Shown in pieces: positions 20,677 to 25,553 of a DNA stretch of 64,000 nt; positions within the stretch are counted from its first letter, which is position 1, and each line of letters begins with the position of its first letter. The DNA comes from Auricularia sp. M13 (taxonomy: Eukaryota > Basidiomycota > Agaricomycetes > Auriculariales > Auriculariaceae): assembly GCA_037042915.1 (NCBI GenBank), contig CM073198.1, positions 2,542,001 to 2,606,000 on the forward strand, written 5' to 3'. The position numbers and the translations under genes are program-made. The notes beneath the pieces are model-generated. The model was not told the DNA's origin, ran no database searches, and saw only the letters and a program-made list of their open reading frames with translations.

Positions 20677-22087
20677 ATGTCTGGCAACGCTCCGCTCGCG
20701 CTCTTTGGCAAGATCGACTATGGCACGCCCGAGGAGTACCGCAAGCGCAAGGTCGCGCTGATCTCTGGTGCGCCGGCGCCTGCTGCCACTCGCGGGCGCG
20801 GGGCGTGATGCTGACGGGCGTGCGGCGCAGGCATCACGGGCCAGGACGGGTCGTATCTGTGCGTCGCGGGTCGTGCGGGCGGCAGCTGTGCGTGCTCATT
20901 GCCGATAGGACCGAGCTGCTGCTGGAGAAGGGCTACGAGGTCCACGGCATCATTCGCCGCTCGTCCAGCTTCAACACGGGCCGCCTCCACCACCTCTACG
21001 CGGACCAGCATGAGCGTCAGTAGACCGTGATATCCTGGGATTATGTCTGTCTAGCAGTAGCTCACACAGCGCTCGCAGGCCCGACCCGGTTCTTCACGCA
21101 CTATGGCGATCTGAGCGACAGCACGAATCTCGTCTACATCATCGCGCAGGTCCGCCCGACCGAGGTCTACAATCTCGGCGCGCAGTCGCACGTCAAGGTC
21201 TCGTTCGAGATGGCCGAGTACACGGTGCGCAGCATCTCAGAACCGCCAATGTATCCGCTCAGCTCACGCTGCTCGGCCAGGGCGACGTCGACGCGCTCGG
21301 GACATTGCGGCTGCTGGACGCGATCCGCACGTGCGGGCTCGAGAAGCACGTGCGGTTCTACCAGGCGTCGACGTCGGAGCTGTACGGCAAGGTCGTCGAG
21401 ACGCCGCAGTCGGAGACGACGCCGTTCTACCCGCGCTCGCCGTACGGCGTCGCCAAGATGTACGCATTCTGGATCACCGTCAACTACCGCGAGGCCTACA
21501 ACATGTACGCCTGCAACGGCATCCTCTTCAACCACGAGAGCCCGCGCCGCGGCCGCACCTTCGTCACCCGCAAGATCACCCGCGCCGTCGCCGACATCAG
21601 CCTCGGCAAGCAGAAGTGCCTCTACCTCGGCAACCTCGACGCGAAGCGCGACTGGGGCCACGCCAAGGACTACGTCGAGGGCATGTGGCGCATGCTCCAG
21701 CAGGACACCGCCGAGGACTTTGTCCTTGCCACAGGCGAGACCCACCCCGTCCGCGAGTTTGTCGAAAAGTCCTTCGCTTGCGTCAACATGAAGATCAGGT
21801 ACGCCATATTACCTCCTGGAAATTTCAATCGCTGATGTTTCATGACATTTAGGTGGGAGGGCGCCGGCCTTGACGAGGTTGGCATCGACGAGAAGACGGG
21901 CAAGACCGTCGTCCGCGTCGACTCCAACTACTTCCGTCCCGCAGAGGTCGAGCTCCTCCTCGGCAACCCTGCGAAGGCGGAGAAGAAGCTCGGCTGGAAG
22001 CGCGTCGTCGCCTTCGACGAGCTCGTGAAGGAGATGGTGGCCGCCGACCTGGAGGCCAGCCAGAACCCCATTGAAAACCAAAACTAG
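20677..22087 (+). CDS. GMD: GDP-mannose 4,6-dehydratase (374 aa)
   Basis: Catalyses GDP-D-mannose to GDP-4-keto-6-deoxy-D-mannose, the first step to GDP-L-fucose; a cytosolic NADP-dependent short-chain dehydrogenase/reductase. Exons: 20677-20767, 20831-20858, 20909-21015, 21079-21224, 21281-21798, 21853-22087, totalling 375 codons. The Rossmann motif [10 protein letters not shown] is on a 28-nt exon. [15 protein letters not shown] matches the GMD nucleotide-binding loop. The catalytic tyrosine and lysine are in [10 protein letters not shown], and the region from FNHESPRRG through [14 protein letters not shown] is diagnostic of GMD. The 3' end faces the GDP-fucose synthase gene with 169 bp between the stop codons. 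Nothing indicates loss of function. Confidence 0.97.
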
Positions 22088-22256
22088 ACGGACAATCCAC
22101 TTCGCTTCTCTTCGCACCCTTCACCAGCGCCAGTCACTTCAATATAGAAACACTTTCTCTTTGACGAAGCAGGACGCAAAAAATTGGGGCGCATGCCTGC
22201 CGCAACATCTATTGCATACAATCGTGGCTACAGAATGAACAGGACAAGCGATCGAT

Positions 22257-23662
22257 CTAGTGCTTTCCCGTCCTCGCCGAGTCGTAGTTTTGCAGGAACC
22301 ATGACACGGTCTCGTCCATGGCCTGGTCGAACGGCGTGAACTTGAAGTCTCCGATCAAGCTGAGCAGCTTCTTGTTCGACGCCGGTTTGCGGAACTGGCC
22401 GTCCGCTTTGGAGGTGTCAAACTAGTGCAGGGCGCAAGGTCAGGGTGGCTACGACGTCAATGGATTGTGGGATCTCCTCACAGAGTAATCGCCCTGGAAG
22501 CCCACGGCTTTCACAATCGAGTCGGCGACCTCCTTGATGCTGATTTCCTCGTCTTCACCGACTGCAGCGAGCATGAGGTGAAAGCCATTACCTGCAAATC
22601 ACAAAACATACCAGAAAGTATGATCGGCTCGATCTCGTTGTACTCCCTCAACTGCCAGATGAACAATTTGGCCAGGTCGCGAGAATAGATGAACTGCCGA
22701 AGGGGCTTGCCAGTCCCCGCAACAACGAAGGGCGTGCCGTTCTCTGAGCGTTTCGCTGCTTCAGCGATCTAATCGGAAATTGAACGATCGCACGCACTCT
22801 TCGCGAGATAGCACTTGTGAATGAGCCCGGGAATGACGTGCGAGCTCTCGAGGTCGCTGTCCGCGCGCGCATGTAAGGAGTGCGCAGCATATAATCGTTG
22901 AATGCACGCACAAGTTATCGTGCGGCCCAAAAATGTTGGTGGGGATCGCGGAGGTGAAGTTGTCGCCAAACTGGTCGTGGTAGGCGCTGCATGGAGGTAT
23001 GAGGACTGGATTAATCGATATTAGAGGAACTCGTAACTGGTTCTGGACATCGACGAGGCGCTTCGCGTAGGCGTAGCCGAAGTTGCTGTCGTGCGGCGGG
23101 CCAAGGTGGACCTTGCTCTCGTCGAGCGGGTAGGTGACCTTGTCGGGGAAGACGCAGGTGGAAAGGCAGGAGATGACCTTCTTGACCTTGTGCTCGTGCG
23201 ACGCGTGCAGGACGTTGTCGTTGATCAGCAGGTTGTCGCGCAGGAACGACAGCTACGCCCGCAGCCAGATCAGCGCGGATACCTTCTATTATACCGCAGC
23301 TACGCGCCTTGTATTTCATGTTGCCGAACAGGCCACCAACTGCAGACCGTCAGAGTCAGCGGGCGGCGCGATCGCAGCGTGTGGCGCACCGAGGGCGGCG
23401 AGATGGATGACATGGGTCGGCTTGTACTTGTCGAACAGCGCCTTGGCCTGCGCCGCGTCCCTGTATGCGCACGGGGGTGTTATGCGCGCCTCGCGATGGC
23501 TGAGCTAGCTGCCCACTTGAGATCCCCGTCCGACGCGCGCGCAAAGATCCAGGTCTCGCCGGGCTGCTTGCCAAAGCGCGATCCCTCGGGCTCGGTCTCG
23601 ATAACGTGCTTGATGGCTGAGCCCACGAGCCCGCTGCCGCCGGTGACGAGGATGACAGACAT
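22257..23662 (-). CDS. GER1: GDP-L-fucose synthase (epimerase/reductase)
   Basis: Converts GDP-4-keto-6-deoxymannose to GDP-L-fucose using NADPH. The minus-strand start at 23662 reads [17 protein letters not shown] with the Rossmann glycines. Exons assigned: 23517-23662, 23390-23460, 23308-23339, 23038-23252, then further exons from 22986 down to 22257. Key segments are [35 protein letters not shown], the active-site tyrosine and lysine in [36 protein letters not shown] and [17 protein letters not shown]. Intron 3 (23253-23307) has a GC donor. It shares a 433-bp divergent promoter with the downstream nucleotide-sugar transporter and is convergent with GMD. The gene appears intact. Confidence 0.96.
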
Positions 23663-24095
23663 GGTACTGGTACAAGATCCGCGGGAACGATCGACGACAA
23701 CAAAACAAACAGAAAGTGTACTGAACTTCATGCATCGTTCAATTATTACAGTAACCCAACTGATGAGATTACAATATGTAGTCTTAGCAAGGGCTCTCAG
23801 GGCCGTCAAGTGTTTAGCCATGGACTGCGCTCACCAACTGCATTGTAGCCGCGGCTCAACCGCGCTCTATCACATCCATTGGCTGCCTGCAGTCCCCTGC
23901 GGGGAATATGCATCCAAAGACGCGTCCTTCAAGACTGAGTACTGACATCTCTGAGTTTCTGCGGAGTGATCGTGGGAACCGGAGATAATCTGGGTTGCTG
24001 CGCAGTGAGCTACAATTCGCCGATCTTTCGCACAGACCTGTTGGAATTCGACGCTGTGCTCGGCACCCGGGTCCCGCAGCCCTTGACCTTCGACT
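23663..24095. promoter_or_regulatory. Shared divergent promoter of GDP-fucose synthase and nucleotide-sugar transporter
   Basis: 433 bp between two diverging start codons with no other gene. It contains a perfect inverted repeat TCCCCTGCGGGGA at 23893-23905 (TCCCC, 3-bp spacer, GGGGA) and an ATTGG (inverted CCAAT) at 23878-23882. Each half of the palindrome includes a CCCC(T) core, as bound by fungal zinc-finger factors. Regulatory use is inferred from position only. Confidence 0.5.
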
Positions 24096-25553
24096 ATGTC
24101 CACCCAGCATGCCCCGCCGCCGTCGCGCCTTGTTGTCGTGCGTTCTGCGCCCACCGCGCGCGTCCCGCACACCACTGACGACAACGACGTGTAGTTCGGC
24201 GCGGTTTCGTTCTACCTCGTCGCGGCGCTGGCTGTAAGTACAGAGCTCAGCAATGGAAAACGAGTTCAGGTGTACTTATGCGTGTACAGATGATCATTGC
24301 GTGAGTATTCCAACGCGCAAGCCGATGCGGCCGTGCTCATGGCAGCTTTGCAGCAACAAATGGGTGCTGAACAAGTCGCTACCGCCACTGTTCTTCCTGG
24401 ATATGCAGCTCTTTGTCGCTGTCGCGCTGCTCTTCTTATGTCGCGTATTACGACTACTCAAATTCCCCATCACAATGACATGGGCGACCGTTAAGGGTCT
24501 CGCGCCGCTTGTGCTCATCAACGTAATAGGCCTCAGGTGAGCACATCCATTCGCTTTGCAGGCAGCCTATTCATCAAGGTGACCGTTGCAGTTTCAACAA
24601 CTTCACCTTACAGCTAGTCGACGCGTCCTACTACCAAGTCGCGCGTGGCCTGCTCGTCCCATTCACCGTCGCGACATCCTTCATCTTCCTGCACTCCCGA
24701 CCATCTCTGCGCGTCTTAGGCGCATGCGCCATCGTCACAGGCGGCTTCCTGGTCGGCGTACTGCTCGATCAGTCTTACTCGTCCACGACAAACTCGTCCT
24801 CGCCGCTCGGTATCATCTGCGGCCTCATTTCCACGCTGACCACCTCGTTACACGCGGTCGTCATCAAGCGCAGCTTAGACGTCGTCGAGGGTAACACCGT
24901 CGAAATGGCGTGGTACTCCAATCTTCTCAGGTGCGACCCCGTTGCTGCCTCCGCCACTGCCGTAGCACGCTGAACTCCTATTTATAGCGCGTTGCTCCTT
25001 ATACCCATAATACACCTGGCTGGAGAAACCCCGGCCGTTATAGAGCTTTTCACGTTCGAGGAGGTCGCGAGACCAGGACAGTGGACGACTTGGGAAACGT
25101 TCCTCGTCGGTACTGCTGTCACGGTGCGTATCCTATCAGGGCGCTGTGCTGTTCGGGATTGACTGAAGGGCGCGACGTTAGGGCGTGTTCGGCTTCCTCA
25201 TTTGCATCGCGGGTTTCCTGAGCATCAAGGTCACCTCGCCCATAACGCACATGATCTCCAGCGCCGTACGCAGCGTCTTCCAGTCGTTCCTGGGAATCTG
25301 GTTGTTCCAAGACGTTATTACGAGGTAAGCCATCTTCCGCCTGCGCCCTTCCCAGCGGCTCACCTTGCTTGTGCTTGTCAGTGGCCGCGCGAGCAGCATT
25401 GCTATCATCCTCCTCGGCTCCATCTACTATACCTACGTCAAGAACGAGGAAGCGATAGCGCAGACGAAGTTGGCGAATGCGAACGGACACGCGTATGAGC
25501 GCGTGCCGATGACGGACGTGGAGGCTGGACGGAAAAGTACGACGCAAGATTAA
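24096..25553 (+). CDS. Golgi nucleotide-sugar transporter, GDP-fucose transporter (SLC35C1) type (354 aa)
   Basis: Drug/metabolite-transporter superfamily protein expected to exchange cytosolic GDP-fucose for luminal GMP. Exons: 24096-24137, 24195-24233, 24290-24300 (11 nt), 24354-24536, 24592-24930, 24988-25123, 25182-25324, 25382-25553, totalling 355 codons. Multiple hydrophobic helices; ALAMIIANKWVLNKSLP at the start, TGVFGFLICIAGFLSIKV and KVTSPITHMISSAVRSVFQ match the conserved C-terminal half of SLC35C1. The apparent in-frame TAG at 24192-24194 is the acceptor of intron 1. Its position beside GMD and GDP-fucose synthase supports the GDP-fucose assignment. A triose-phosphate or UDP-sugar transporter of the same superfamily is the alternative. 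The C-terminal tail is cytosolic and hydrophilic. Confidence 0.88.

Follow-up and report, generated by a model that had tools for sequence, protein, structure and literature searches.

The closest described counterpart of the locus reported here is the human set of GMDS, GFUS (TSTA3/FX) and SLC35C1, the genes of which are, to our knowledge, not neighbours. In the fungus Auricularia sp. M13, a window of 64,000 nucleotides (contig CM073198.1, positions 2,542,001 to 2,606,000; C6:2542001-2606000 in our contig numbering) carries genes for a GDP-mannose 4,6-dehydratase (GMD), a GDP-L-fucose synthase (GFS, also called GMER or FX) and an SLC35C1-like nucleotide-sugar transporter contiguously at 20677-25553, on the plus, minus and plus strand, respectively, as modelled by splicing the window sequence. 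The trio matches the human set in its three steps, its catalytic residues and the group of its carrier, and the two enzymes are 70% and 62% identical to the human ones, whereas the identity of the carrier to an unverified SLC35C1 sequence falls to about 28%, and this carrier has two paralogues in the fungal genome.

Adjacent GMD and GFS genes are likewise found in the bacterial gmd-fcl (wcaG) pair, as for colanic acid, which runs in one direction and is not known to come with a nucleotide-sugar carrier. The bacterial pair is also free of introns, whereas the fungal genes are convergent and intron-bearing and encode a GFS of eukaryotic type. Among fungi, GMD and GFS for de novo GDP-fucose synthesis have been characterised biochemically in Mortierella alpina (Ren 2010, cited by PMC10481521 and PMC8092308), an early-diverging fungus that also has a salvage route (PMC10481521). 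Published work already describes genes for de novo GDP-fucose synthesis in Dikarya (PMC10481521), fucose has been predicted for Basidiomycetes (PMC8092308) and a metabolic model of Ganoderma lucidum includes GMDS and TSTA3 (PMC6298397). The Vrg4 GDP-mannose transporters of fungi are Golgi GDP-sugar carriers of the SLC35 family as well (PMC13342644), but the window carrier has neither their GALNK nor the full FYNN motif. In the excerpts of open-access literature found, no report described the three-gene neighbourhood, which is weak evidence of its absence from print. The parts of the pathway are thus already known, while their side-by-side arrangement looks non-random.

The trio is real and intact, and its parts are well known. 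Judged from the sequence, we consider it likely, with good confidence, that the locus supplies this fungus with GDP-L-fucose de novo, probably as its only such unit, and that a putative carrier accompanies the two enzymes.

Gene models and identity of the two enzymes

All coordinates are collected in Table 1. Each of the three genes runs from an ATG start to a stop codon once 5 (GMD), 8 (GFS) and 7 (transporter) predicted introns are removed. These introns measure 50-63 nt and follow the GT-AG rule in 19 of 20 cases; GFS intron 3 (23253-23307) starts with a GC donor (GCGCGT), apparently forming a GC-AG splice site. An in-frame TAG at 24192, near the transporter start, falls inside a 57-nt intron ending in GTGTAG. 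As predicted, splicing at the GC donor and removal of the 57-nt intron both restore conserved protein sequence. We rejected the possibility of pseudogenes, as all three frames close once spliced. An earlier note on this DNA had described complete frames with catalytic residues retained, the stop codons of GMD and GFS being 169 bp apart and the starts of GFS and the transporter 433 bp apart. The distances and the gene ends agree to the base and the residues of both enzymes are in place, while the frames are complete in the spliced models but not in the unspliced sequence.

The identification of GMD as an enzyme of the eukaryotic kind appears close to certain from its sequence. It matches the Pfam profile GDP_Man_Dehyd with 520.7 bits over the whole domain (positions 1-332/332), and its best solved relatives in the PDB are 6gpk (536.1 bits) and 5in4 (535.7 bits). 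An alignment of 342 aa gives 69.6% identity with the PDB row for GMD, which, like 5in4, we take to be the human enzyme. The protein has T155, E157, Y179 and K183, to which we assign the catalytic T/E and YxxxK roles, and the Rossmann glycine motif GITGQDG at position 31. When the genome (52,096,326 bases in 14 contigs) was searched with the same profile, 16 matches were obtained, three of which (291, 82 and 57 bits) correspond to exons in the window. The next-best gene, on contig C1, was matched in two pieces with 94 and 81 bits and is 22% identical to GMD (38 bits). Among the eight loci stored from this search only those of the window gave GMD-grade matches, so that no second GMD was seen with this profile in the 52.1 Mb.

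GFS can be assigned with a confidence close to certainty as well, again to the eukaryotic kind. It matches the Pfam family Epimerase with 160.9 bits, and the top five distinct PDB sequences, scoring 386-461 bits, are all named GDP-L-fucose synthase or synthetase. The best of these are 4e5y (461.3 bits), presumably the human enzyme, and 4bkp (461.1 bits), and the identity to the PDB row for GDP-L-fucose synthase amounts to 61.8% over 317 aa. Scores drop from 461 bits for the human-type enzymes to 386 bits for 6aqy and then to at most 180 bits (7ll6, 179.8 bits; 1bsv, which we take to be from E. coli, 161.1 bits). 4BKP and 4B8Z are structures of human GFS (PMC12362431), for which the same source names the residues Tyr143, Lys147, Cys116 and His186, and also Thr114. 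The fungal protein has Y143, K147, C116 and H186 at the same numbers, and at the place named Thr114 the fungal protein, like the human row, reads LSTC from 113. All six matches obtained with GFS as query in the 52.1 Mb are window exons; a second GFS was not seen.

Table 1. Positions of the trio, its intergenic regions and the carrier paralogues (window numbering unless a contig is given).
Feature	Position	Strand	Details and basis
GMD, GDP-mannose 4,6-dehydratase	20677..22087	+	374 aa, 6 exons; spliced model, Pfam, PDB
GMD exons	20677-20767, 20831-20858, 20909-21015, 21079-21224, 21281-21798, 21853-22087	+	
169-bp gap between convergent GMD and GFS stop codons	22088..22256	.	model coordinates
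GFS (GMER, FX), GDP-L-fucose synthase	22257..23662	-	324 aa, 9 exons; spliced model, Pfam, PDB
GFS exons	23517-23662, 23390-23460, 23308-23339, 23038-23252, 22912-22986, 22798-22856, 22612-22743, 22482-22561, 22257-22421	-	
433 bp between the divergent starts of GFS and transporter, presumably their common promoter	23663..24095	.	coordinates; promoter function presumed
SLC35C1-like nucleotide-sugar transporter, putative GDP-fucose importer	24096..25553	+	354 aa, 8 exons; model, TPT, hydropathy, SLC35C1 comparison
Transporter exons	24096-24137, 24195-24233, 24290-24300, 24354-24536, 24592-24930, 24988-25123, 25182-25324, 25382-25553	+	
Tandem SLC35C1-like carriers	C3:2569345-2570538 and C3:2576465-2577179		search with window transporter

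The putative carrier and its paralogues

The transporter matches the TPT family (PF03151) with 66.2 bits at a cut-off of 30, and a simple hydropathy scale gives nine hydrophobic segments, ten membrane helices being expected for the TPT/SLC35 family. Human SLC35C1 was compared using an unverified sequence, while the yeast Vrg4 sequence used matched 5oge over 1-337. Against this SLC35C1 sequence the transporter shows 28% identity over 317 aa and 104 bits, against Vrg4 only 19.6 bits, and a Vrg4-type GDP-mannose carrier was rejected on this difference. The SLC35C1-like character claimed in the earlier note thus holds at the level of the group, whereas the GDP-fucose role is shared with two further candidates in the genome. 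Searching the PDB with the transporter returned three chance-level matches and no SLC35 protein, and a piece of one paralogue returned one chance-level match; in viral contigs, two stretches fitted a pattern, with no relatives among them. The TPT profile itself matched the genome five times without listing the window gene, and hence makes a poor family count.

With the window transporter as query, the genome yielded its own exons, a tandem pair on contig C3 (2.569-2.577 Mb), the best pieces of which are 46% and 45% identical to it, and a distant member on C9 (23%). Since three SLC35C1-like genes are present, the GDP-fucose carrier could be any of these three candidates. The best argument for the window gene is its linkage to GMD and GFS, because of which we regard it as the likely, though putative, GDP-fucose carrier; a Golgi location would follow from its family only.

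Several properties of the C3 pair weigh against this assignment. The pair is 45-48% identical to the window protein in the C-terminal half and 42% in one N-terminal piece, its pieces match the unverified SLC35C1 sequence equally well (28-32%), and it keeps the lysine in transmembrane segment 9 (TM9), which is replaced by arginine in the window protein. In TM9, the SLC35C1 sequence reads GTAKA, the C3 members SAAKS and the window protein SAVRS, and in TM1 the C3 members have MVFVNK and the SLC35C1 sequence MVFLNK, as compared to MIIANK in the window protein. The GMD and GFS genes might therefore form a real pair next to a diverged paralogue for another GDP- or nucleotide-sugar, with a C3 paralogue importing GDP-fucose. 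Such an arrangement would fit the three SLC35C1-like genes and the signature residues of the C3 pair, and it is in line with reports that the substrates of SLC35 proteins are poorly predicted by sequence identity (PMC6789118) and that fungal carriers of class 2.A.7.10.4 include a Basidiomycota-specific group (PMC10481521). We nevertheless rate it as rather unlikely, as the window carrier is linked to the only GMD and GFS genes seen and is alone in keeping the tyrosine of FYNN. In TM7, where the SLC35C1 sequence and Vrg4 share FYNN, the window protein has WYSN and retains the Y and the last N of this guanine motif, whereas the C3 members have YWTN and YWSN. Moreover, in our reading no single frame is open across the middle of C3 member 1, which may reflect poor modelling, such as an overlooked intron, a fault in the assembly or damage to the gene. 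In Vrg4, guanine is read by FYNN and the sugar by the TM9 motif (PMC6789118, PMC13342644), and SLC35C1 has Thr and Arg at the positions of R229 and K356 in CaVrg4 (PMC13342644). The WYSN and SAVRS marks are not decisive for the substrate of the window carrier.

Beyond the likely assignment as a GDP-fucose carrier, the locus may represent a conserved fungal, presumably basidiomycete, cluster that combines single-copy GMD and GFS with a lineage-specific SLC35C1-type carrier, having a GDP-fucose-tuned WYSN/SAVRS site and being distinct from the C3 carriers. This extension is tentative, and we regard it as possible but doubtful.

Arrangement, flanks and possible shared control

Ten open stretches out of 70 listed were scanned in the regions on either side of the trio, within 11.6 to 39.3 kb. 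Seven of the ten had a Pfam match and none was a glycosyltransferase, with the limit that a split gene could escape, so the unit seems to consist of just three genes. The matches comprise P450, a ubiquitin-conjugating enzyme, an F-box (just below cut-off), RNA polymerase III Rpc34, a PEX14-like KPWE domain, a helicase C-terminal domain and Mre11. The KPWE domain (26216-26458; 27.7 bits, cut-off 27) is part of a small gene that follows the transporter downstream, and the open frame at 26662-27090 appears to resemble the tail of a transposon-type protein. A fucosyltransferase next door was rejected, as the ten flank stretches scanned contained none and whole-genome searches for fucosyltransferase families gave nothing in the window.

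Only GFS and the transporter have the 433-bp upstream region in common and could be controlled from it; GMD, whose orientation is convergent with that of GFS, starts from a different upstream region, and its promoter is therefore separate. The two upstream regions share eight 9-mers as compared to a mean of 2.1, a number reached in 5 of 300 crude shuffles, and two 10-mers as compared to 0.5, reached in 40 of 300; no 11- or 12-mers are common to them. The shared words overlap each other, and this enrichment is weak.

An arrangement arising from coincidence or neutral ancestral order, without shared regulation, would be in keeping with the separate GMD promoter, with shared words that are merely mildly enriched and mutually overlapping, and with flanking genes that are unrelated to the trio, the last of which also speaks against a functional unit in general. 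Chance adjacency of the trio can be put at roughly 3e-8 by simple arithmetic, assuming single copies of GMD and GFS, three SLC35C1-like genes, a genome of 52 Mb and neighbourhoods of 2.5 kb, and this value is still small when many possible pathways are allowed for. The trio is thus probably non-random. Bacteria place GMD next to a GFS homologue too: in 4 of 10 fetched bacterial loci a GMD-grade neighbour (451-474 bits) was present. Three of the others had full 5-kb flanks without a GMD match, one had a weak 82-bit relative, and the remaining two came from stretches that were short or truncated. None of the 12 viral GFS loci, at most 34% identical, had a GMD-grade neighbour, and 9 of the 12 had an SDR of 24-29% identity nearby. 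On this evidence, coincidence appears to us an improbable account of the trio.

Horizontal acquisition of GMD and GFS as a bacterial gmd-fcl unit, suggested by the adjacency in these four bacterial loci and by a widely conserved GMD that is 58-64% identical to the GMD neighbours there, was rejected and is extremely improbable, as GFS scores 461 bits with human-type enzymes versus at most 180 for the next group after 6aqy and is at most 35% identical to the ten fetched bacterial relatives versus 62%, the fungal genes are convergent with 5 and 8 introns, and PMC10481521 reports no bacterial transfer of fucose genes.

Probable source and possible use of GDP-fucose

The supply unit would work in consecutive steps. 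GFS would epimerise the GMD product at C3 and C5 and subsequently reduce it to GDP-L-fucose, and the SLC35C1-like carrier would, judging by family and neighbourhood, most likely bring GDP-fucose through the Golgi membrane in exchange for GMP. Lumenal fucosyltransferases encoded elsewhere, for which O-FucT-family type II membrane proteins are the candidates, may then add fucose to glycoproteins, polysaccharide or small molecules. The proximity of the genes may aid their shared expression or joint inheritance.

As no second GMD or GFS was seen and no match to fucose pyrophosphorylase (PF07959) exceeded the 34-bit cut-off in the genome, the trio is likely to be the sole GDP-fucose source of this fungus; no search for fucokinase was made, and the PF07959 control gave a signal in 7 of 14 genomes and exceeded the cut-off in one. 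A 35-residue, 21-bit match to PF07959 at C6:2510698-2510802, about 31 kb upstream of the window, is probably due to chance. An apparent sole source accords with the distribution of the salvage route in PMC10481521, which describes it for Mucoromycota and otherwise for no more than single occurrences among some chytrids.

That a fucosyltransferase would be encoded elsewhere, as the earlier note had supposed, is borne out at family level by an O-FucT gene on contig C8. The O-FucT profile (PF10250) matched C8:1350548 above (36.5 bits) and C3:636481 below the cut-off (24.2 bits). The C8 gene (C8:1350047-1351237) encodes 397 aa in one uninterrupted frame that begins at its ATG. By eye, the protein shows a VHLRRGDF stretch and what looks like a membrane anchor at its N-terminus, and it reaches 37.5 bits in Pfam at a cut-off of 31.5. 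Used as query, it found itself and eight further matches with E up to 0.01. These lie at seven places, three on C7, two on C5 and one each on C3 and C11, of which six have E < 0.001; the places likely belong to the O-FucT family.

Several points weigh against the proposed explanation. Most relatives of the C8 protein do not match the O-FucT profile itself, and a PDB search with the C8 protein gave two chance-level matches and no relevant relative. The GT10, XG_FTase and FUT8 models were unmatched in the genome, in searches with silent controls from which intron-split genes can escape. For Agaricomycotina, PMC10481521 reports GT10, XG_FTase and O-FucT and does not list FUT8. The same source speculates that fucose serves Dikarya mainly as a signal to be sensed and as a nutrient, not as a building block, which would argue against the latter role here. 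Mushroom galactans containing fucose have been reported (PMC6432100, PMC8000984).

Fungal fucose biology is little studied, and according to PMC10481521 fungal fucose transporters were without experimental verification as of 2023. The pathway-linked carrier of Auricularia sp. M13 offers a concrete candidate for such a test. Loss of GMD or GFS should remove the GDP-fucose supply and would thereby show how the fungus uses fucose, be it in polysaccharide, glycoproteins or secondary metabolites.

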